A DNA stretch of 64,000 nucleotides from Desulfovibrionaceae bacterium. GTDB taxonomy: Bacteria; Desulfobacterota; Desulfovibrionia; Desulfovibrionales; Desulfovibrionaceae. A program made the position numbers and the translations under genes. Within the stretch, counting starts at the first letter, position 1, and each line of letters starts with the position of its first letter. The notes under the pieces are model-generated. The model was not told the origin of the DNA and made no database searches. It saw only the letters and a program-made list of their open reading frames with translations. Shown here in pieces: positions 7,553 to 47,313 of the stretch. The stretch covers positions 1-64,000 of the forward strand of contig JAFLSV010000008.1 of the NCBI GenBank assembly GCA_022510785.1, written 5' to 3'.

Positions 7553-8629
7553 ATGCAGAATCACACATGGTTTGCCGAGCGCCGCGAGCGCCTGCGCCGC
7601 CTCATGGCCCGCGAAGGCCTCGACGCGCTGCTCGTCAGTCACCCCGCCAACCGCTATTACCTGTCCGGCTTTGAACTGCACGACGGCCAGTGCAACGAAA
7701 GTTCCGGCTGCCTCCTGCTGACCCGCGGCGGCCAGGACTGGCTGTGCACGGATTCCCGTTACGAGGAAGCCGCCGCCGGCCTGTGGGAACGCGAGCGGGT
7801 GTTCCTGTACCAGGGCTCACCGGCCGAGGACGTGCGGGCGCTTATCAGGGACAAGGTTTCAGGCACCACGGGCTTTGAGGCGAAAATTCTGTCCTGGGAC
7901 TATGTGCGCCGGATAGAACCGGGGCTGACACTCAGAGAGGCCGACGGCCTGGTGGAAGAGCTGCGCGTCATCAAGGATGACATGGAAATAGCGCGTCTTG
8001 AGCGTTCGGTGCGCCTGAACCACGACATGCTGGCCTGGCTGCCGTCCATCCTGACCGCGGGCCGCAGCGAAGCGGACATTGCCTGGGCCATGGAAAAATA
8101 TTACCGGGAAAACGGCGCTTCGGAAAACAGCTTTCCGCCCATTGTGGCCAAGGACGCGCACGCCGCCCTGCCCCACTACCGGCCGGACAAGCCCGCCGTG
8201 TTGACGCCCAACTGCCATGTGCTGGTGGATCAGGGCGCAAGGGTGGATCAGTATTGCTCGGATCAGACCCGCACCTTCTGGGTAGGCGACAAGCCCTCGG
8301 ATCGCTTCCTCAAGGTGCTGGAAAGCGTGCGTGAGGCCCAGCGCCGGGCCATAGCCCATATCCGCCCGGGCGTGAGCGGGCGCGAGGTTCATCAGGTGGC
8401 CGTGGACTTTTTCGCCTCGCGGGGGCAGGAAAAGGCCTTCACCCACTCCCTCGGGCATGGCGTGGGGCTGGAAACCCACGAGGAACCACGCCTGAGCCCG
8501 CGCAGCACCACCAAACTCCGGCCCGGCATGATTGTCACCGTGGAGCCCGGCCTCTATTACCCCGGCTGGGGCGGCGCGCGCTGGGAATATATGGTGCTGG
8601 TCACCGAAGACGGCTGCCGGGTGCTGTGA
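7553..8629 (+). CDS. Xaa-Pro peptidase (M24 family, PepQ/aminopeptidase P type)
   Basis: A 358-residue, two-domain M24 metallopeptidase. The N-terminal creatinase-like domain holds the motif SHPANRYYLSGF. The pita-bread catalytic domain carries all five metal ligands: D226 (LVDQGA), D237 (SDQTRTF), H302 (GHGVGLETHEEP), E331 (VEPGLYY) and E345 (WEYMVLV). It removes residues preceding proline from short peptides in the cytoplasm. The start is set at ATG 7553 by alignment with the family N terminus; the Shine-Dalgarno sequence (AAGGA about 9 bases upstream) agrees. The 218-base gap upstream contains only the hairpin at 7422-7444. Confidence 0.93.
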   Translation: MQNHTWFAERRERLRRLMAREGLDALLVSHPANRYYLSGFELHDGQCNESSGCLLLTRGGQDWLCTDSRYEEAAAGLWERERVFLYQGSPAEDVRALIRDKVSGTTGFEAKILSWDYVRRIEPGLTLREADGLVEELRVIKDDMEIARLERSVRLNHDMLAWLPSILTAGRSEADIAWAMEKYYRENGASENSFPPIVAKDAHAALPHYRPDKPAVLTPNCHVLVDQGARVDQYCSDQTRTFWVGDKPSDRFLKVLESVREAQRRAIAHIRPGVSGREVHQVAVDFFASRGQEKAFTHSLGHGVGLETHEEPRLSPRSTTKLRPGMIVTVEPGLYYPGWGGARWEYMVLVTEDGCRVL

Positions 8630-8688
8630 AGCGGCACCGGGGACGGGCTTCTCCACGGGCAGGATCAACGGCCTTTGCTCTATGAAAA

Positions 8689-8711
8689 GCGCCGCGGAAA
8701 ATCCGCGGCGC
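8689..8711 (-). terminator. Rho-independent terminator of the DUF362 gene
   Basis: A perfect 9-bp stem, GCGCCGCGG / CCGCGGCGC, with a 5-base loop. Read on the minus strand it is followed by TTTT. It lies between the convergent peptidase and DUF362 genes. Confidence 0.7.
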
Positions 8712-8839
8712 CTGTCTGTAAGCCGTGCCGCGCCCCGCTTGTGACAGGCCCGGCCGCCCCAGGCGAGCGGGGTATGACGGCGTTTCCGCCGCCACCCCCG
8801 GGTCTTCAAGGCGTCGCCCCGCGCGGACGGGGCCTGGGC

Positions 8840-9949
8840 TTACACGGTTATAAGCTCATATTTGGCCGTGCCCAGGCCGATCTTTTCGGCGTGTTCAATC
8901 TGACTGCGCCAGTCGGTGGTGGGATGAACATCCGTAAAGTGATCGTGATGCGTGCGTTCGCGCTGGGACAGGATGCTGGACTCAATAACGGGCGCGGCGT
9001 TGACCGCGTCAATGCAGGCCTGATCCAGGGCCACGGGGTCAAAGCTGGCGAACATGCCCAGGTCAGGCACCAGGGGCACGTCGTTTTCGCCGTGGCAATC
9101 GCAGAACGGCGACACCTGATTGACAATGCTGATGTGGAAATGGGGCCGGCCATCCACCACGGCCTTGGCGTATTCGGCCATACGGCAATTGAGGTCATAG
9201 CTGCCCGCGTCAAAGTTGTTGACTATGGCGTTGTAGTTGCATGTGCCGATACAGCGCCCGCAGCCCGCGCATTTTTCATGATCAATGACGGCCTTGTGAT
9301 TTTCGCCCATGCTGATGGCCGACTGCGCGCAAAATTTGGTGCAGGTGCGGCAGCCCCGGCACAGCGTCTGATCCACAACGGGCTTGCCGTTGGCGTGCAT
9401 GGCCATTTTGCCCGCCCGGCTGCCCGAACCCATGCCGATATTCTTGATGGCGCCGCCAAAGCCCGCCAGCTCATGCCCCTTGAAATGCGTCAGTGAAATG
9501 AACACATCCGCGTCCATGACAGCCCGGCCGATAAGAGCGCTTTTCAGATAAATTCCGCCCCGCACGGGCACTTCCACATCGTCCGTGCCCTTGAGACCGT
9601 CGCCGATGATGATCTGACACCCTGTGGACAAGACCGTATAGCCGTTTTCCTGGGCGGCGCTCATGTGTTCCAGCGCGTCCTTGCGCCGCCCGACATACAG
9701 GGTATTGCAATCCGTCAGGAAAGGATATCCGCCGAGCGTCCGCACCGCATCCGCCACGGTTTTGGCAAAATTCGGCCGCAGAAAGGACAAATTGCCGGGT
9801 TCGCCGAAATGCAGCTTGATAGCCACATATTTCTGACCCATGTCCATGCTTTCCAGACCCGCGCGCCGGATCAGACTGTCCAGCTTCTGGAGCAGGCTGA
9901 CGCCAACCTTGCACCTCATATCGGTGAAATACACTGGGGAAGCGTTCAT
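8840..9949 (-). CDS. DUF362 protein with two [4Fe-4S] ferredoxin clusters
   Basis: A 369-residue protein. Residues 1-185 and the C-terminal part match the DUF362 fold (KLHFGEPGN, TDCNTLYVG, HFKGHELAGFGGAIKN). Between them is a bacterial ferredoxin module with two complete CxxCxxCxxxC sets (CRGCRTCTKFC and CAGCGRCIGTC). The family is annotated as an iron-sulfur/ferredoxin-like protein of unproven function, common in strict anaerobes and probably part of electron transfer. The start is ATG 9949: AAGGAG lies 9 bases upstream, inside a longer TTG-initiated frame that is therefore not used. It is monocistronic. Confidence 0.85.
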   Translation of the reverse strand: MNASPVYFTDMRCKVGVSLLQKLDSLIRRAGLESMDMGQKYVAIKLHFGEPGNLSFLRPNFAKTVADAVRTLGGYPFLTDCNTLYVGRRKDALEHMSAAQENGYTVLSTGCQIIIGDGLKGTDDVEVPVRGGIYLKSALIGRAVMDADVFISLTHFKGHELAGFGGAIKNIGMGSGSRAGKMAMHANGKPVVDQTLCRGCRTCTKFCAQSAISMGENHKAVIDHEKCAGCGRCIGTCNYNAIVNNFDAGSYDLNCRMAEYAKAVVDGRPHFHISIVNQVSPFCDCHGENDVPLVPDLGMFASFDPVALDQACIDAVNAAPVIESSILSQRERTHHDHFTDVHPTTDWRSQIEHAEKIGLGTAKYELITV

Positions 9950-14274: not shown

Positions 14275-14739
14275 TTACGCGATCGTGCAGATGTCCACCC
14301 AGGACGCGCCGGTGACGCGCTCCAGATCCGCCAGGGAAATTTCCACGGCGTTGTTGGTCGCCCCCGCGGCGGGATACACCGGATCAAAAAGGCGCAGGCT
14401 CTCGTCCAGAAAGACGCGAACCCCGGGCGGCGCGGCAAAGGGACAAACCCCGCCCATGGGGTGGCCCACCAGATTTTCCAGCTCGTCAGGCCTGGCAAAA
14501 CTGGCCTTTTCGCCGAACTGATCCTTGAATTTGCGGTTATCCACGCGCGCCGTGCCCATAACCACCACAATGACGGGCCCGCCCCGGGTCACAAAGGTCA
14601 GCGATTTGGCAATGCGGCCGGGCTCACAGCCCAGGGCCGCGGCAGCCAGTTCCACCGTGGCGCTGGATCTTTCAAAGGAACGGTAGGCGCCGGCCAGGCC
14701 ATGACCGGCCAAAAAACGCCGCACGGCTTCCACACTCAC
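14275..14739 (-). CDS. YbaK/EbsC-family aminoacyl-tRNA deacylase
   Basis: About 154 residues. Family marks are SLTFVTRGGPVIVVVMG, with the Lys of the active site just before (IAKSL), RVDNRKFK, GHPMGGVCPF and DPVYPAAGATNNAVEIS. YbaK-type proteins hydrolyse mischarged tRNAs such as Cys-tRNA(Pro) in trans. The frame is open to 14844, but the GTG at 14739, preceded by GGGAG at about 8 bases, gives the family's normal length and is preferred; this start is an inference. Confidence 0.85.
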   Translation of the reverse strand: MSVEAVRRFLAGHGLAGAYRSFERSSATVELAAAALGCEPGRIAKSLTFVTRGGPVIVVVMGTARVDNRKFKDQFGEKASFARPDELENLVGHPMGGVCPFAAPPGVRVFLDESLRLFDPVYPAAGATNNAVEISLADLERVTGASWVDICTIA

Positions 14740-14982
14740 ACGCAAGCTCCCGGAGACAGAGGGTGGGTCACGGCTTTCCCTTAGCCGCGGAACGCCGCGC
14801 CCGGCCCCGGAGGCCGGACACGCGCCGGCGTTCGGGCGTACCATAGCGCAAAGACGCAGCAGTTTTCAAGGGCGCGGAGGCACACGAACGGCATGCGGCC
14901 GGCCAGAATCAGCGCGCCGGAAGACCCGGCACGAGGCCGGCGCCGCTGCGGACGCACAGCGCCCGCAGCGGCGCCCGAAGGC

Positions 14983-15534
14983 TTATTGCTTGACAATCTC
15001 GATGGTTCTGCTCTGGGGCTTGTCAGGTTCCTTGCGGGGAATGGCGATGCACAGCACGCCATCCTTATGCGTGGCGCTGATCTCATCCGCCACCGCATCT
15101 TCCGGCAGCGTCAGCACACGCTCAAAGGAACCGTAGGAACGTTCACTGAGATAACAGGCCTCGTTGTCGCCGCTGCCTTCGGACTTTTTTTCGCCCTGAA
15201 GAATCAGCACGTGGTCGCGCACCTCGATTTTCACGTCATCAGGCTGGACGCCCGGCAGCTCGACGCTCACGGTATAGGCCTTTTCATTGCTGCGCACATC
15301 CAGCCGGGGCATGACGGACGCCGCGCCGCCCGCATGGGACGAACCCAGCCGGGGCAGAAAGCCGAAATCCCACGGGCTCATCATGCCAAACACACTGTCA
15401 AAGAGCCGGTCGATATCGTCGTGCAACTGAAGCACCGGCGCATAGGACGAACCCCGCCGCTCATTGTCCGGGCGGACAACGGGACTGGGCCGGGAAGCAA
15501 AGCCGCGCTGTGTATTCACATGGGGAGTATACAT
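14983..15534 (-). CDS. Small heat-shock protein (Hsp20/alpha-crystallin)
   Basis: A 183-residue protein with a disordered N-terminal arm (1-80), an alpha-crystallin domain (about 82-172; VELPGVQPDDVKIEVRDHVLILQGEKK, then DGVLCIAIPRKE) and a C-terminal IEIVKQ tail containing the IxI/V motif used in oligomer assembly. It is an ATP-independent holdase chaperone. The start follows AAGGAGG at 7 bases. Upstream is a clear sigma-70-like promoter; no CIRCE palindrome was seen. Confidence 0.95.
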   Translation of the reverse strand: MYTPHVNTQRGFASRPSPVVRPDNERRGSSYAPVLQLHDDIDRLFDSVFGMMSPWDFGFLPRLGSSHAGGAASVMPRLDVRSNEKAYTVSVELPGVQPDDVKIEVRDHVLILQGEKKSEGSGDNEACYLSERSYGSFERVLTLPEDAVADEISATHKDGVLCIAIPRKEPDKPQSRTIEIVKQ

Positions 15535-15569
15535 ACTCTAACCTCCTTGTGGAAATCTTTTCTAATATA

Positions 15570-15597
15570 CTTATAAGTCTGGATTTAAATGTGTCAA
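15570..15597 (-). promoter_or_regulatory. Promoter of hsp20
   Basis: On the minus strand TTGACA and TATAAG are spaced by 16 bases, 36 bases before the start codon. This is one of the cleanest vegetative promoter matches in the window. Confidence 0.65.
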
Positions 15598-15672
15598 CAT
15601 CCTGTTGATAAATTCTTTTGCCGGGTACTTTCCAGCCTCAGCGCGCTTTCCCGCTCCTCCGAAAACAGCAGC

Positions 15673-15698
15673 GCCCCCGTCCATGGCGGAACGGGGGC
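15673..15698 (-). terminator. Possible terminator hairpin of the larC-like gene
   Basis: GCCCCCGT pairs with ACGGGGGC around a 10-base loop, 60 bases past the larC-like stop on the minus strand. It is followed only by a short T-rich stretch. Confidence 0.4.
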
Positions 15699-15758
15699 AC
15701 TGGGCCGCGCGCGGCCTTTCTCTTCAGAATCCTGTTGTTCAGCCGCCAAAGTCCTTCA

Positions 15759-16622
15759 TCAGATGGTCACGGCCCCGCTGTTCCCCGTCCCGCGCCCCCA
15801 CGCGAACATGGCGCCGTTGGGCGCGTTCTCGAACACATAGGTTCCGTAAACCAGAGCCCGCCGTTCCACGCGCATGGCGGGCCAGGGACCGAACTGTGCC
15901 CCCAGGCTCCGGAGCAGGGCCAGAGCGGTGGGCGTGACGGTTTCTCCCCGTCCCGCGAAGGGACGCACGGGCACCCCCTCCAGAAGTTCCAGCACGGCCG
16001 GCGCGGGCACGGGCAGGATGCCGTGGGCGCAGCTGACCTCGCCGTCCGCCATGGGCAGAGGGCTGACCACGAAACGCGAGGGATCAAGCCGGGCAAAAAG
16101 TTCGCAGCTGAGGCAGATGTCCAGAATGCTGTCCAAAGCGCCCACCTCGTGAAAGCGGACGTCTTCCGGCCTTTTTCCATGTACGGCGGCCTCGGCTTCG
16201 GCCAGCAGGGTGAAGCTTCCTGTGGACAGCTCCCGGCCGGCGGGGCTCAGGCCGCTTGATGCGATAATGGCCACAATGTCCGCCAGGCTGCGGTGAACGT
16301 GCTGATGGGGCAGCGTCACCTCGGCGTGCCAGCCGCCCACATGGTTCACCTCGCGCCGGATAAGACGCACAGACCCCGCCAGTTCGGGCAGGATGGAACC
16401 CAGGAGGCCATCCAGGGCGTCGCCTTCCATGCCCGTCATGCGCATGAGGCCGGCCAGGAACATGTCGCCGGACAGGCCGGAATGCGCGCGCACGGTCAGC
16501 ACGCTTCCCCCGCGCGCCGCGGCGTCGCGGGGCGCATCCGCGCGGGCGCGGCCGCGCCCGGAGGAGGCGTCATGATCGTGGGGCGAAGGCTCCCCTGCCT
16601 GATGCTGATGGACGTCGCTCAT
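15759..16622 (-). CDS. larC: LarC-like (DUF111) nickel-insertion protein, N-terminal type
   Basis: A 287-residue protein with the LarC/DUF111 marks SGLSGDMFLAGL, HHH-like HQHVHRSL, HEVGALDSILDI and ETVTPTALALL. LarC inserts nickel into the pincer cofactor of lactate racemase-type enzymes using CTP. The length fits the N-terminal (LarC1) portion only; the C-terminal LarC2 part is absent here. The first 22 residues are histidine-rich (HQHQ, HDHD), consistent with metal handling. No larA, larB or larE is adjacent. The start is ATG 16622, after GGGAA; the upstream open frame has no family similarity. Confidence 0.82.
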   Translation of the reverse strand: MSDVHQHQAGEPSPHDHDASSGRGRARADAPRDAAARGGSVLTVRAHSGLSGDMFLAGLMRMTGMEGDALDGLLGSILPELAGSVRLIRREVNHVGGWHAEVTLPHQHVHRSLADIVAIIASSGLSPAGRELSTGSFTLLAEAEAAVHGKRPEDVRFHEVGALDSILDICLSCELFARLDPSRFVVSPLPMADGEVSCAHGILPVPAPAVLELLEGVPVRPFAGRGETVTPTALALLRSLGAQFGPWPAMRVERRALVYGTYVFENAPNGAMFAWGRGTGNSGAVTI

Positions 16623-41513: not shown

Positions 41514-42464
41514 ATGCATACCCGAACCCGTATTCTGGTCACCGGCGGAGCCGGCTTTCTTGGATCCCACCTGTGCGAGCATCTGCTGAATCAGGGCCAC
41601 GAAGTTCTGTGCGTGGACAACTTCTTCAGCTGCGACCGGCAGAATGTGGAACACTTGCTGGACAACCGGCGCTTTGAACTCATCCGCCACGATGTGACCT
41701 TTCCACTCTATGTGGAGGTGGACGCCATCTACAATCTGGCCTGTCCGGCCTCCCCCGTCCACTACCAGCACGATCCGGTTCAGACCATCAAAACCTGCGT
41801 GCACGGGGCCATCAATATGCTGGGCCTGGCCAAACGGCTGCGCGCGCCCATCTTCCAGGCCTCCACCTCCGAGGTGTACGGCGACCCCGAAGTCCATCCC
41901 CAGACCGAAGAGTATTGGGGCCACGTCAACCCCATCGGCCTGCGTTCGTGCTATGACGAGGGCAAGCGCTGCGCCGAGGCGCTCTTCTTCGCCTATCGCC
42001 GGCAGGGCGGTCTGCCCGTCAAGGTGGGGCGCCTGTTCAACACCTACGGGCCGCGCATGCACCCCAACGACGGCCGGGTGGTATCCAACTTCATTCTCCA
42101 GGCCCTGCGGGGCGAGCCCCTCACCATTTACGGCGACGGCTCGCAAACGCGCTCGTTCTGCTATGTGGATGATCTTATAGACTGCATGATCCGCTTCATG
42201 GCCGCCCCGGACGACATCACCGGCCCGCTCAATATGGGCAATCCCGGCGAGTTCACCATCCGGAGCCTGGCCGAGCAGGTCATCGAACTGACGGGCAGCC
42301 GCTCGATCATTCTCCACAAGGCGCTGCCCGACGACGACCCGAAGCAGCGGCGGCCGGACATTACCCGTACCACGGAGCAGCTCGGCTGGACGCCCTCGGT
42401 TCCCCTGCGGGAGGGGCTCACGAAAACCATCGCCTATTTTGAGGCCATGCTGCGCAAGGGCTGA
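41514..42464 (+). CDS. uxs: UDP-glucuronate decarboxylase (UDP-xylose synthase)
   Basis: A 316-residue extended SDR. NAD motif [36 protein letters not shown]; catalytic STSEVYGDP and the YDEGKR of the YxxxK pair; [21 protein letters not shown]. These are the marks of UXS-type decarboxylases rather than 4-epimerases. It makes UDP-xylose from UDP-glucuronate. AAGGAG precedes the start. It is the last host gene before the AT-rich island, which begins 16 bases after its stop. Confidence 0.93.
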
Positions 42465-42481
42465 ACTCTGAGGGCTGTCCA

Positions 42482-42499
42482 ATTTTTATTCATAAAAAT
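42482..42499. promoter_or_regulatory. Inverted repeat at the left edge of the island
   Basis: ATTTTTAT and ATAAAAAT are exact inverted repeats separated by TC, 18 bases after the uxs stop. It could be an operator for the island genes or a weak terminator for uxs. Confidence 0.35.
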
Positions 42500-42612
42500 C
42501 AGCATATTAAAAATAAATATCGCGTCATACAACAAAATATAGACTTGAGAAGAGGAGCATGATAGGGTTAGTTAAACAATAGCATAATAGTACAGTTGGA
42601 GGCTTTAAAAAT

Positions 42613-45600
42613 ATGTCAAATACAGAAAGTATTCCTTTTTCCCAAGGGCAAAAAGTCATAGATAAAAATTCTCCTGGAAATATTGCAGAATATACAGGAA
42701 AAAACCGCTATCTTGGCTCGCGGTTAATGGTGGAAATTAAATTTTCTGATGGAACCTTACAGCTACGACCCGCATCAAGTATCTTAGCTATCGAAGAAGG
42801 AAAAATAAATAATTTACTTGAACAGATGCAAAATGGACTTTTTGGGAGACTATCTGATTTACGCCAACTCATTACATACGAAAAACTTAAAGGTTCTTTG
42901 CATGATGTAATTTATTCTATGGAAAGTGCACAAATAGATTTTTATCCATATCAATATAAGCCTGTAATTAAATTTATTGATTCACCTTCTGAAAGATTAT
43001 TGCTAGCTGATGAAGTTGGTCTGGGGAAAACAATTGAAGCTGCACTTATTTGGATGGAGATGCAGGCTCGATATCAAGCAAAGCGTCTTTTAGTTATTTG
43101 TCCTAAAAATTTAGCAGAAAAATGGAGAGCAGAACTCCAAGAAAAATTTCTTATTAATGCTAAAATTGTTGATTTTATTGGGTTTCGGGAAGAGATTGAA
43201 CAATTAAAAAAATATGGAGAAAGTTACCCGTTTGCATTAATCAGCACGTATTCCGGATTAAGACTTCCCAAAAACGAGCGGGACGCTCTCAGAACCCGAC
43301 CTGAAGATGCTCACCCCGCTTCCTCCAAGGTAGAACTTTTACGCGAATTAAGGTACTGGCCCGAAGAATATCAAGCAATAGATCTTGTTATTTTTGATGA
43401 AGCTCATTACATGCGCAATCAAGCAACAACAACCTACCTTCTTGGTGAAAGTTTATCATCATCAGAAGCATCTCGTGCAGTCCTTTGTGTTTCTGCAACC
43501 CCTGTTAATAATAAAAGCACAGACTTACATAGTTTATTAAAACTTATTGATGAAGATTTTTTCTCTACACAATCTAGTTTTGAAAATTTAATTAAAATTA
43601 ATAAACCTGCAGTAAATGCATGTAATGCATTGGCAAAATATCCTATAGATATTGAACTATTAACAAAATCTCTTAAACAAATGGAAAATGTTTCATATAT
43701 TAATACATCTCCATACTTTCCTGAATTGCTCAAAAAATTAAAAAAGCTTGAACAAAAAAATTTTACTGATTCTTCATTACTTGCAAAATGTCAGGATATT
43801 ACAGAAAAAATGAATGTTTTAGGAGCATATATTAATAGAACTCGGCGAATACAAGTACAAGAAAATAGACCGATTAGAGTATCTGTTGTTCGGCCTGTTA
43901 ATTATGCTCAAGAAGAAATGGAACTATATCAAGCTATACTTAGTGCAGTCAGAGCATATTGCCAAAAAAATAATTCAGAATTTCATGTGTTTCAAATTAT
44001 GACATGGCAATTAATGGCTGCAAGTTGCATCCCGGCCTTTGTTGAAAAGATAAAAAATGATAAAATATATGAATCTGATAGTATTCTCTCGGAAGCTTTT
44101 GGAGAGTTTGAGAATGATAACATGCAATCAGTAAATATATTTAAAGATACTATATCCTGGTCAAAATTGCTGAATTATGACTTTGAAAAAAATGATTCAA
44201 AATTGAATGATCTGTATACAATTTTAAAAAATGAACCAAAAGAAAAAATAATTATATTTTCTTACTATCGTGGCACATTAAATTACTTACAAAAAAAATT
44301 GATGGAAATTGGTGAAATAGTCTCTCTTATTCATGGTGATATACCAGTAGAGAAGAGATGGGATGAGCTTGAAAATTTCCGATCCCCCACAGGATCAAGG
44401 ATTTTACTTGCATCAGAAGTTGGAAGTGAAGGTATAGATTTACAATTTTGTCATATACTCATCAATTACGATCTGCCATGGAATCCAATGCGGATAGAGC
44501 AACGAATAGGCCGTATTGATCGCGTTGGCCAAACAGCAGAACGCTTATCTATAATTAATTTTAAGGTACATGGTACTATTGAAGAACGAGTATATGAAAG
44601 GTTACATCAAAAATTAGAAATATTTAGTAATAGTATCGGCGATCTGGATGAAGTTCTTGGAGCAGAAATAAAAAAACTTACTATTGATCTTTTAAGCAAA
44701 AATCTGACTAGCGAAGAGCAAGACAAGCGCATTATCCAAACACAGCAGGCTATAGCAAAAAAGCAAAGCGATATAAAATTTCTTGAAGAATCTGGTGAAG
44801 GATTAGTTGCTTTATCAGACTATATTCAAAAAAAAATAGAAGAAAATTATAATCGTGGAAGATATATACAGCCCGCAGAGCTTAAGGCATATGTTTCAAA
44901 TTTTTTCGGTCAATTCTTTAAAGGTACTATAATTAATTATAATACACCAACAAATGGTTGCCTGCAAATATCTCTTTCAGATGAAGCCAAAGCATCACTC
45001 TATAATTTTATTAAAGAAGATAAAAGCCTAGCAGCAACACAACTTCGCCAAAAATCAATTAATATGACTTTTGATCGGGAAATCGCACAAGAATTAGGAA
45101 GAAAAAAGAAAATAATTTTTATTAATCATATGTCACCATTTATTCGCTGGATGACTAAATTTAATAAAGAAAACGAATTAAACCTTCATAAAATTTCTGC
45201 TATTTCGTGTAATACTAATTTACTTCACAAAGGCATATATATTTTCAGAATTGATAGATGGATATTGAAAGGTATACTTTCAAAAGAAAAATTGGCTTAT
45301 GGATTTATTTCTCTTGAAAATGGGGAGTGTATATCATCTTATGATTCAGAAGTGATATTTCAATATATTTTTATCAATGGGAATGAATGGATATATCATG
45401 AGTATGACACAGGCAAATTTCAAATGAATTATGAAAAACTTGAACAATATATGTATGATCAACTCGATGAAGAAACTAAAGATTTTGAAATTGAGAATAT
45501 AAATACGATTCAGATCAAAAAAGAGCGTATATCAGTAATATTTAATCGAAAAATTGAGCAAGATAAACGCCGCTTATTAACTATGATTGAAAATAATCGT

Positions 45601-45747
45601 GGTGAGCAAATTATAAATATGACACGAGCTCGCATTAAAAAAAATGAAATTCTCATGGAGAATAGAGTTAAAAAATTAGATTCCAGCAAAAAAATTGATA
45701 TCAATGCAGAAATTGTAGCTTTAGGAATTGTTAAAATCGAATTATAG
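42613..45747 (+). CDS. SNF2/RapA-like DNA-dependent ATPase, accessory (candidate defence helicase)
   Basis: A 1044-residue superfamily 2 protein. Residues 8-60 look like an SH3/KOW-type barrel (QGQKVIDK..PGNIAEY..VEIKFSDGTLQLRP). The SNF2 motor follows: motif I DEVGLGKT (K139), motif II DEAH (262-265), motif III SATP (294-297), C-lobe with IHGDIPVEKRWDELENF and VGSEGIDLQFC, and motif VI QRIGRIDRVGQ (630-640). The last 330 residues are unassigned and helical. SNF2/RapA-like helicases of this size occur in defence systems such as DISARM (DrmD) and in Dpd clusters; none of the other genes of those systems are here. TTGGAGG precedes the ATG by 10 bases. Codon use is strongly AT-biased. The partner gene begins 13 bases after the stop. 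Confidence 0.85.
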   Translation: MSNTESIPFSQGQKVIDKNSPGNIAEYTGKNRYLGSRLMVEIKFSDGTLQLRPASSILAIEEGKINNLLEQMQNGLFGRLSDLRQLITYEKLKGSLHDVIYSMESAQIDFYPYQYKPVIKFIDSPSERLLLADEVGLGKTIEAALIWMEMQARYQAKRLLVICPKNLAEKWRAELQEKFLINAKIVDFIGFREEIEQLKKYGESYPFALISTYSGLRLPKNERDALRTRPEDAHPASSKVELLRELRYWPEEYQAIDLVIFDEAHYMRNQATTTYLLGESLSSSEASRAVLCVSATPVNNKSTDLHSLLKLIDEDFFSTQSSFENLIKINKPAVNACNALAKYPIDIELLTKSLKQMENVSYINTSPYFPELLKKLKKLEQKNFTDSSLLAKCQDITEKMNVLGAYINRTRRIQVQENRPIRVSVVRPVNYAQEEMELYQAILSAVRAYCQKNNSEFHVFQIMTWQLMAASCIPAFVEKIKNDKIYESDSILSEAFGEFENDNMQSVNIFKDTISWSKLLNYDFEKNDSKLNDLYTILKNEPKEKIIIFSYYRGTLNYLQKKLMEIGEIVSLIHGDIPVEKRWDELENFRSPTGSRILLASEVGSEGIDLQFCHILINYDLPWNPMRIEQRIGRIDRVGQTAERLSIINFKVHGTIEERVYERLHQKLEIFSNSIGDLDEVLGAEIKKLTIDLLSKNLTSEEQDKRIIQTQQAIAKKQSDIKFLEESGEGLVALSDYIQKKIEENYNRGRYIQPAELKAYVSNFFGQFFKGTIINYNTPTNGCLQISLSDEAKASLYNFIKEDKSLAATQLRQKSINMTFDREIAQELGRKKKIIFINHMSPFIRWMTKFNKENELNLHKISAISCNTNLLHKGIYIFRIDRWILKGILSKEKLAYGFISLENGECISSYDSEVIFQYIFINGNEWIYHEYDTGKFQMNYEKLEQYMYDQLDEETKDFEIENINTIQIKKERISVIFNRKIEQDKRRLLTMIENNRGEQIINMTRARIKKNEILMENRVKKLDSSKKIDINAEIVALGIVKIEL

Positions 45748-45760
45748 AGGAGAAACTTGA

Positions 45761-47308
45761 ATGGATAACTTCCGCAAAACACTAAAAAAACTTTCGAGTA
45801 AAATACTTCTTAAATCTCAAAATCCAAGAATAAAGGAAAGGCAAAATATAAAAAAATTTAAATTACCTCTTCAAGGTATAAAAGCAAATACTTCTCTACA
45901 CAGCAATAAACAATTAGTACCTCGCGATCCTTATTTTTTCCAAATTGGATTTGATTTTGGAACATCAAGTTCTAAAGCAATTATTCGTGATATAAATACA
46001 AATATTGCATGGATATATACTTATTCCAATAACATCACGAATAATACTATCTTAATTCCAAGTATTGTGATTTATCAAAATGGATATTTTGCGCAATACA
46101 AAAATATAGACACTCTTTACCCGAAAAATGGACTTTATCATCTTAAAATAGCGGCACAAAAAATTGCAAATGGTATCACGGAAGATCAGGTCTTTTCAGA
46201 GTATAAAAAAATTGCTGAGTCAAGTTTACCTTATCCGTATACTTACTTTATTGAATTAACCTGCATATATTTTCTTTCCTCAAGTTTTTCTGATATTCTT
46301 ATGAATATTACACAAAAATTTCCTAATTATGGTCAAAACCAAGATGATCAGATCGCTATTAATATGGCAATGCCAGTATCTGATATTAGTGATAATAATG
46401 TACGCATTTTGTTTGAACGCATCTTAAATATTTCTTGGAAAATTTCTTGTAAATTCAAACCTTTTCCTAAAAGAATTTCAATCCTTAGATTGAATGAAAT
46501 GGTCGTAGAATGTCAACAAAATGCTATAGAAAATTCTAATGATAGCTTATGTCATGTCTACCCAGAAGTTAGTGCAAATATGCAAGCATTTATCCGATCT
46601 CCAGCATCAAGCCCTAATGACTCTACTATCTATTTCTTCAATGATACTGGTGCAGGAACTGTTGATCAGTGTGTTTTTACTTATACCAGAGATAATAAAA
46701 AATTAAATTATTTTTCAGATGGAGTGTTTCTTAGAGGTTCAAGCCAAATTGAAACTATAGCCTGTGGTGATAATATCAATAAAGATAACCTTGAATTCTG
46801 GAGAAAGAAAAAAGAACAAGGAGAAAATTCTTCTACCCTTACACGTGCAAAGTATAAAATTACAGAAGAACTAAATATTGATACACAAAAAACTTTGCAA
46901 AAAACACTACATTGCCTTCGCTCTGGTCCAGGTGTTACTAAAATGGATACGCTTAAATATAATATAAGATTCATTTTCAGTGGTGGTGGACATACAAAAT
47001 TCCCTTATCACTATGCTGTAGTTGAGGCATATAAAGATTTTATGAAAACAAAAACAGATCCACTGATAACATCTATGGCAATTCCTCAAGACTTATTGAT
47101 AAAAGGCCACGAATTATGGATAAAACGTTTATATGTGGCTTATGGACTTTCTTTTCTATTTGAAGAACTTGCTGAAAATTCCTTCCCCACAGACAACAAA
47201 ATAGATGATAAAATCAAGCAAAACAAAACTATTGCTAGCGAAGAATGTTCTTGCCGTGGATATAATAAAAACTGTGTAAGATGCTACGGCACTGGAATTA
47301 TTCAATAA
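45761..47308 (+). CDS. Hsp70/actin-fold ATPase with C-terminal DnaJ-like zinc motif
   Basis: A 515-residue protein. The ASKHA ATPase marks are all visible: phosphate-1 GFDFGTSSSKA (D65), phosphate-2 NDTGAGTVDQ (D295-T300) and the adenosine motif SGGGH (407-411). The Hsp70 substrate-binding domain is absent. Instead the extreme C terminus has four cysteines, C496, C498, C505 and C508, in CSCRGYNKNCVRCYGTG, resembling one zinc-binding half of the DnaJ cysteine-rich domain. A basic 50-residue N-terminal arm precedes the fold. It is coupled to the SNF2 gene (13-base gap) and ends 5 bases before the convergent ddl stop codon. Function is unknown; a chaperone- or switch-like partner of the helicase is inferred. 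Confidence 0.82.
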   Translation: MDNFRKTLKKLSSKILLKSQNPRIKERQNIKKFKLPLQGIKANTSLHSNKQLVPRDPYFFQIGFDFGTSSSKAIIRDINTNIAWIYTYSNNITNNTILIPSIVIYQNGYFAQYKNIDTLYPKNGLYHLKIAAQKIANGITEDQVFSEYKKIAESSLPYPYTYFIELTCIYFLSSSFSDILMNITQKFPNYGQNQDDQIAINMAMPVSDISDNNVRILFERILNISWKISCKFKPFPKRISILRLNEMVVECQQNAIENSNDSLCHVYPEVSANMQAFIRSPASSPNDSTIYFFNDTGAGTVDQCVFTYTRDNKKLNYFSDGVFLRGSSQIETIACGDNINKDNLEFWRKKKEQGENSSTLTRAKYKITEELNIDTQKTLQKTLHCLRSGPGVTKMDTLKYNIRFIFSGGGHTKFPYHYAVVEAYKDFMKTKTDPLITSMAIPQDLLIKGHELWIKRLYVAYGLSFLFEELAENSFPTDNKIDDKIKQNKTIASEECSCRGYNKNCVRCYGTGIIQ

Positions 47309-47313
47309 AAAAG

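Follow-up and report, generated by a model that had tools for sequence, protein, structure and literature searches.

A RapA-type SNF2 motor paired with an Hsp70-fold ATPase: probably an undescribed two-gene defence system

INTRODUCTION

DISARM, BREX, Dpd, Zorya and ARMADA all include SNF2 motors, whose control is poorly understood. In ARMADA, BREX and Dpd the motor is joined by methylases, by helicases of YprA or other type and by more genes. RapA (HepA), the RNA polymerase recycling ATPase, is a solitary chromosomal factor. Hsp70 proteins, for their part, occur in other predicted conflict systems: the CnuD proteins of type III CoCoNuT are Hsp70 homologues that have both a nucleotide-binding domain (NBD) and a substrate-binding domain (SBD) and are encoded beside McrBC GTPases, while further Hsp70-containing systems include TRAFAC-type GTPases, tubulins or GrpE (PMC11090510, PMC7159879). 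Here we describe a gene pair found in a 64-kb stretch of DNA from a Desulfovibrionaceae bacterium (the whole stretch is called the window below), which couples a RapA-type SNF2 helicase to an ATPase with the Hsp70 fold. The motor is of a familiar kind, and the two genes together probably make up a hitherto undescribed defence system.

RESULTS

The pair is a co-inherited two-gene unit

Two intact open reading frames (ORFs) on the plus strand, separated by 13 bases, encode proteins of 1044 and 515 residues (Table 1). Their GC content is 31.3% versus 65.5% for the remaining window, in which every other 4.7-kb stretch has a GC fraction of at least 0.584. The low-GC stretch sets in within ~50 bases of where a uxs-like gene ends and stops at ddl. 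An earlier note, made from the letters of this DNA, had proposed exactly such an arrangement, two adjacent genes in an AT-rich insert between uxs and ddl, and it holds.

We scanned 84,980 species genomes with a 47-residue fragment of the helicase; as the anchor was taken from the helicase alone, the partner gene could not bias the scan. There were 185 relatives, and the best 80 were retrieved as loci. The Hsp70-like gene adjoins the helicase gene in 73 of these 80 loci. Five of the seven exceptions lie at contig ends, one (L073) has a broken helicase and one (L120), the only one that keeps an intact helicase and enough flank to judge, has a different 308-residue ORF followed by a contig end. 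The proposal of the earlier note was to fall if the helicase proved widespread without the ATPase; helicases of this clade are nearly always paired. The helicase scores in 395 genomes of the same phylum formed tiers: seven helicases exceeded 1000 bits, all beside an Hsp70-like gene, and about ten helicases at 390-550 bits had no Hsp70-like gene adjacent.

All 70 pairs that were measured are co-directional, with a median gap of 14 bases. The helicase gene comes first in 55 of them and the Hsp70-like gene in 15, the reversed order being cyanobacterial. Pairwise distances between helicases correlate with those between Hsp70-like proteins (Mantel r 0.95 for the 70 pairs, reached in 0 of 5000 permutations), also after thinning to 36 pairs with <60% helicase identity (r 0.90, again 0 of 5000). 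Median identity across pairs is 35% for the helicase and 22% for the partner. No third gene family is present at more than 6 of 75 loci; the commonest flanking families, another SNF2 helicase and an integrase, are each found at six. Adjacency, co-direction, correlated distances and the lack of a recurrent third gene together characterize the pair as a complete, co-inherited two-gene unit.

A protein of 1180-1280 residues with an SF1 (RecD/UvrD-like) helicase domain adjoins the pair at 5 of 75 loci (L017:6565-10254, L045:14570-18337, L047, L048 and L111:263-4114), and a gene of the same kind stands beside a sacsin-type pair of the sister lineage described below (L037:1473-5024). It is possible, judging from these positions, that the protein is an accessory shared by both types of pairs.

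Two deviating copies were considered separately. An Hsp70-like gene without helicase in genome G310 (L032:6570-10426) was rejected as a case of free-living use: it has lost its N-terminus and adjoins an IstA/IstB-like pair, and it is apparently a decayed copy of the module. The copy in genome G015, of the same genus as the window, was rejected as a pseudogene, the suspect TAA being the terminal stop of a shorter protein.

Architecture of the helicase

The helicase passes the Pfam cut-offs for SNF2-rel_dom (3.5e-26) and Helicase_C (7.6e-25). Its AlphaFold2 (AF2) model, built from 47 relatives (predicted local distance difference test, pLDDT, 82), has an N-terminal barrel, both RecA lobes and long C-terminal helices. 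The best match in the PDB is E. coli RapA (8spg; Z 23.1, root-mean-square deviation, rmsd, 11.4 over 768 residues); RapA aligns to residues 67-1044 of the model, i.e. to the last residue (Z 20-23), and the sequence profile agrees with RapA at E 1.6e-52. DEVGLGKTIE and DEAH are invariant among the 47 relatives. With the SNF2 core and the RapA-specific C-terminal architecture both present in the model, we characterize the helicase as a SNF2 motor of RapA architecture, in line with the RapA-like motor carrying an SH3-like barrel that had been read from the sequence before. Translocation on double-stranded DNA (dsDNA) would follow from membership in the RapA/SNF2 family. The long C-terminal helices may be the docking site for the Hsp70-like partner.

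The partner belongs to an unnamed Hsp70-fold family

The model of the partner (pLDDT 85, predicted template modelling score 0.83) is matched best by the NBD of DnaK (Z 26.8, rmsd 3.2 over 315 residues, about residues 58-477), with the NBDs of Hsp110, BiP and Hsc70 next (Z 24-27 for DnaK, Hsp110 and BiP); ParM, BeeR and PilM are also among the fold matches. By sequence, the family profile reaches Hsp70 at E 1.5e-5. The phosphate-1, phosphate-2 and adenosine motifs of an Hsp70-type NBD are all in place. Two further residues, K129 and E269, are invariant among 50 sequences of the family and are presumably the counterparts of the Hsp70 catalytic Lys and Glu, judging by the order of motifs rather than by a residue-level alignment. 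A chaperone of DnaK type would have an SBD and a lid as well; here the NBD match stops at about residue 477 of 515, and the tail that follows, modelled with low confidence, is too short for an SBD.

Pfam, NCBIfam and PADLOC gave no match to this protein, and no informative library model was obtained for 50 relatives or for five representatives. The family is thus new to the protein-family libraries, none of which names it.

An N-terminal helix similar to that of the window protein is predicted in many, not all, relatives; some start directly at the NBD. The ends of these proteins vary too. The earlier note had described an Hsp70/actin-fold ATPase with a zinc motif; both the fold and the motif are there, the latter only in few relatives, as four or more Cys in the tail were seen only in the window protein, two close relatives and Mariprofundus. 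On this comparison of sequences the zinc motif is a lineage-specific trait and not a family-wide one. Many relatives (L044, L080, L088, L101, L111, L113 and others) end in [ST]KDx[CV], a tail that recalls C-terminal docking peptides such as EEVD and in place of which the window clade has the four-Cys element. In cyanobacterial pairs of reversed gene order the Hsp70-like genes (L011:11128-11900, L055, L059, L062 and others) encode proteins that are considerably extended at the N-terminus; the added part has a hydrophobic segment as well as sequence resembling a coiled coil and may anchor the protein in a membrane.

Table 1. Features of the gene pair and its surroundings, in coordinates of the window
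Feature	Position	Strand	Basis
AT-rich imported island, containing the pair alone	42460..47310		GC profile
GGAGG, likely ribosome-binding site of the helicase gene, 10 bases before ATG	42598..42602	+	Sequence; by inference
RapA/DrmD-like SNF2 dsDNA translocase (predicted), 1044 residues	42613..45747	+	Pfam, AF2 model, RapA match
N-terminal SH3-like five-strand barrel, helicase residues 14-59	42652..42789	+	AF2 secondary structure
SNF2-related ATPase lobe, residues 128-458, with Walker A and DEAH box	42994..43986	+	Pfam PF00176
Helicase_C lobe, residues 530-639	44200..44529	+	Pfam PF00271
Long C-terminal helices of the helicase, residues 933-993 and 998-1024	45409..45684	+	AF2 secondary structure
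Hsp70-fold ATPase, NBD only, 515 residues, unnamed family	45761..47308	+	AF2 model, DnaK match
N-terminal cationic amphipathic helix, residues 2-15	45764..45805	+	AF2
Phosphate-1 motif GFDFGTSSSK, residues 63-72	45947..45976	+	G63, D65, G67, K72 invariant in 50 sequences
Phosphate-2 motif DTGAGTVD, residues 295-302	46643..46666	+	D295, G297 invariant; T300, D302 nearly so
Adenosine-site GGG, residues 408-410	46982..46990	+	G408, G409 invariant; G410 nearly so
C-terminal four-Cys element CxCxG...CxxCxGTG, DnaJ-zinc-finger-like, Cys 496/498/505/508	47246..47296	+	Sequence

Distribution and mobility

The pair is present in at least 12 phyla, among them Desulfobacterota, Pseudomonadota, Cyanobacteriota, Verrucomicrobiota, Planctomycetota, Spirochaetota, Acidobacteriota, Chloroflexota, Nitrospirota, Myxococcota, Bdellovibrionota and Cloacimonadota. 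Many of the records are metagenome-assembled; others come from isolates or complete plasmids (Shinella, Leptolyngbya, Cyanobacterium, Aminobacter and Sphingobium). Only 8 of 395 genomes of its own phylum have the pair, a sparse and patchy distribution, and in several relatives it is found on plasmids. The window helicase is only 44% identical to the copy of the same genus (G015), versus 72% to a Desulfovibrio copy, and horizontal transfer is therefore indicated. Another copy (L015, genome G054) is flanked by genes for a HipA-like kinase and a tyrosine integrase (8385-9668 and 14689-15954), so that this one is probably on an integrated element.

A phage origin was rejected, since no relatives were found in phage records or viral contigs by scans with short patterns, which could miss distant relatives. 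At the edges of the island in the window we found no flanking repeats, tRNA, integrase or structured RNA; scans for promoters and terminators scored barely above shuffled sequence. In comparison with genomes of the same genus the neighbours of ddl are kept, and a clean empty site is not demonstrable because the uxs-like gene does not adjoin ddl in those genomes.

Genomic company

A set of 87 ORFs flanking the pair matched 222 PADLOC models (models, not genes) at 1e-15, versus 17 models for 87 control ORFs. The neighbours that could be named, some of them from ten hand-picked flanks, include type I and type IV restriction systems, the BREX genes BrxL and PglX, GajB-like helicases and WYL regulators; Hachiman adjoins the Aminobacter pair, and a type I-D CRISPR system lies upstream of the Leptolyngbya pair. 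The expectation of the earlier note, that distant hosts would have the pair as a conserved unit in their defence islands, is borne out by these flanks together with the 73 loci and the range of phyla. With restriction, BREX, Hachiman and CRISPR genes as neighbours and a patchy horizontal spread, it appears quite likely that the pair is a defence system.

Several observations weigh against this assignment. The PADLOC tallies count one gene under several restriction models, and all control genomes belong to a single phylum. In an even sample of ten flanks only two matched PADLOC, and in the window itself the neighbours of the pair are core genes and form no defence island. The Mantel correlation and the adjacency indicate co-inheritance, not function; an anti-phage role is suggested through guilt by association, that is, by genomic company and mobility.

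A sister lineage with a different chaperone-fold partner

The nearest related helicases (those of the 390-550-bit tier and plasmid relatives) adjoin a gene whose large product contains an ATPase domain of Sacsin kind (Hsp90-type). Such SNF2 and sacsin pairs were seen in archaea as well as bacteria: in Methanomethylovorans, Ensifer, Rhizobium and several Desulfobacterota (e.g. L124:8806-15126, L125:8947-15431, L126:8809-15149, L036:8606-15196 and L037:5052-11703). The sacsin-type partner has ~1000-1100 residues, and PADLOC placed two of these partners near Tiamat. A DrmD-like SNF2 helicase with a Sacsin-domain protein is apparently a second undescribed two-gene unit.

In a helicase tree made by a quick method with midpoint rooting, and with some long branches, the Hsp70-paired helicases form a group with SH-aLRT support of 99 and the sacsin-paired ones a group with 96; the two together exclude the DrmD of DISARM with support of 99. 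The two kinds of partners in sister clades suggest that a RapA-type motor with a chaperone-fold ATPase is a wider arrangement, and the Hsp90/sacsin partner supports the idea of a chaperone-like switch in its general form.

DISCUSSION

Proposed mechanism

The reading that we moderately favour is that of a horizontally spread, self-contained two-gene module directed against phages or plasmids, in which an ATP switch of Hsp70 fold controls the motor. The RapA-type motor would translocate on dsDNA and remodel or strip protein-DNA complexes, displacing proteins in the way that RapA acts on RNA polymerase. The obligate partner would bind the motor as a nucleotide-dependent switch or assembly subunit and license it upon the sensing of foreign DNA or of phage activity. 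The Hsp70-fold subunit, whose active site is intact and which lacks an SBD, suits an ATP/ADP switch better than protein folding. As no nuclease domain is recognizable in either protein, interference would be expected to work through displacement (of RNA polymerase, the replisome or entry complexes) and not through cleavage, except where a nuclease of the host or one encoded nearby is brought in. The physical complex, the switching, the DNA target and the defence phenotype are each something that we infer.

By analogy, the closest functional parallel would be the actin/Arp module that controls eukaryotic SNF2 remodellers. One may go further and see in the pair a prokaryotic counterpart of an Arp-regulated remodeller, a nuclease-free defence system in which an actin/Hsp70-fold ATPase, as an obligate regulatory subunit, would turn a RapA-type motor on invading DNA, with an Hsp90/sacsin version in the sister lineage; we put forward this extended form tentatively and consider it rather unlikely. 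If true, it would point to a general principle, a SNF2 motor with a chaperone-fold switch.

Alternative explanations

The pair could be a mobile housekeeping or repair module, i.e. a RapA-like factor whose task under stress would be to recycle RNA polymerase or to clear stalled complexes, aided by an Hsp70-type cofactor. RapA is indeed the closest solved structure along the full length, the Hsp70 fold is typical of stress functions, and the lack of a recognized nuclease domain agrees with such a role. A rare and patchy gene pair that often has a plasmid location and restriction, BREX and CRISPR genes for neighbours, with helicase identities that indicate horizontal transfer, is not what this explanation leads one to expect, and we regard it as improbable.

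Slightly less credible still is an inverse division of labour, in which the Hsp70-like protein would be the sensor or effector (a phage-protein-binding or filament-forming actin-like ATPase), possibly at the membrane, and the SNF2 motor its regulator. Proteins of actin/Hsp70 fold that consist of the NBD only often polymerise, ParM, BeeR and PilM being among the matches, and the cationic amphipathic N-terminal helix of many relatives, like the hydrophobic N-terminal segment of the cyanobacterial type, would suit a membrane location. The best matches are nevertheless the NBDs of Hsp70 proteins and not filament-forming actins, and some relatives have no N-terminal helix. The better conservation of the helicase is what one expects of an unchanging motor whose partner evolves faster, and a partner acting as sensor would fit it too.

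The third alternative brings in DISARM. A PADLOC model named DrmD (PDLC02623) matches the window helicase over its full length at 677 bits, a close DrmD relationship that the earlier note had missed. The same model scores 979 bits on a Shinella member of the Hsp70-paired clade and only 199 bits on a genuine DISARM DrmD; with 677-979 bits for the clade versus 199 for true DrmD, we conclude that the model is misnamed and describes the Hsp70-paired clade. It is a likely source of wrong DrmD calls. Under NCBIfam NF038317, for which the curated DrmD cut-off is 610 bits, the window helicase scores 358-361 bits and two relatives 342 and 439, while true DrmD controls score 1369 and 1193. Searches of the rest of the window, with Oscillatoria DrmA and its DUF1998 gene (taken as DrmB-like) among the queries, found no relative of DrmA, DrmB, the DISARM methylase or sacsin, so that the absence of DISARM partners described earlier stands. 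Methylases related to the PglX-type DISARM methyltransferase, of which the window has none, lie near 3 of ~80 loci, and DrmA lies within 10 kb of the pair at 2 of ~80. The genome of the window does have a class-1 DISARM, on contig C32 (L173, 6343-18509), with a DrmD (1193 bits), a DISARM-type methyltransferase and a DrmA that runs off the contig end.

A reading of the pair as a minimal DISARM or an incomplete one, in which an orphan DrmD works with parts encoded elsewhere in the genome and the Hsp70-like gene is a mere accessory, would be in keeping with the full-length match to PDLC02623, with the DrmA and methylase on C32 and with the two loci close to DISARM genes, but it is very improbable, given that the DISARM on C32 has its own DrmD far above the cut-off that the window helicase fails to reach, that PDLC02623 fits this clade and not genuine DrmD, that the clade stands apart from DrmD in the tree and that ~78 of 80 loci have no DrmA relative nearby. 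With the score below the cut-off, the partners missing and a true DISARM encoded separately in that genome, DISARM membership of the pair was rejected; by these sequence comparisons the Hsp70-paired module and DISARM are separate systems.

Significance

If the pair is, as we favour, a self-contained defence module with a switch-controlled motor, the question of how SNF2 motors are controlled in defence narrows to two purifiable proteins, in a minimal version present in at least a dozen phyla. The Hsp70- and Hsp90-fold partners of sister clades amount to a natural experiment on the gating of a DNA translocase by a chaperone-type ATPase. The analysis also defines an Hsp70-fold family that the libraries leave unnamed and corrects a PADLOC model that labels these helicases as DrmD.

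Comparison with known systems

A search of open-access texts found no two-gene system of SNF2 and Hsp70, although a supplementary table elsewhere may list one; the pair goes unmentioned in the main texts on YprA/ARMADA, BREX, phosphorothioation systems and DefensePredictor. A match to a described system, which would have told against the earlier proposal, was thus found neither in the libraries nor in this literature.

Class 1 DISARM resembles the pair in that DrmD is a full-length homologous RapA-type SNF2 motor, also located in defence islands; it differs in that the pair has an obligate Hsp70-fold partner and no DrmA, DrmB or methylase. Closer are the SNF2 and sacsin pairs, with a helicase of the sister clade and, again, two adjacent genes and a chaperone-fold ATPase as partner, although this partner is a Sacsin-domain protein matching Tiamat models and not an Hsp70 NBD. 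RapA shares its architecture with the whole length of the motor, whereas the window helicase is mobile and paired with an Hsp70-fold gene. ARMADA, BREX and Dpd have a RapA-like SNF2 motor (BrxHII- or DpdE-like) as one component (PMC12458937), while none of their further genes is conserved beside the Hsp70-paired module.

CoCoNuT and the other Hsp70-containing conflict systems likewise have Hsp70-like proteins inside predicted defence loci; here the protein consists of the NBD only and its partner is a SNF2 motor. A type III CoCoNuT would have a McrBC-type GTPase or CnuB-CnuC in the operon; beside the pair no third gene of whatever kind recurs beyond 6 of 75 loci, in surveys that included no search aimed at CoCoNuT genes. 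Finally, in SWI/SNF, RSC and INO80 a SNF2 motor is controlled by actin-fold subunits, and Arp binding frees intramolecular contacts of the remodeller ATPase (PMC5969521). These complexes are eukaryotic, their Arps bind an N-terminal HSA helix, and the Hsp70 NBD and actin share only the fold; the likeness of the pair to them would be one of function and not of kinship.

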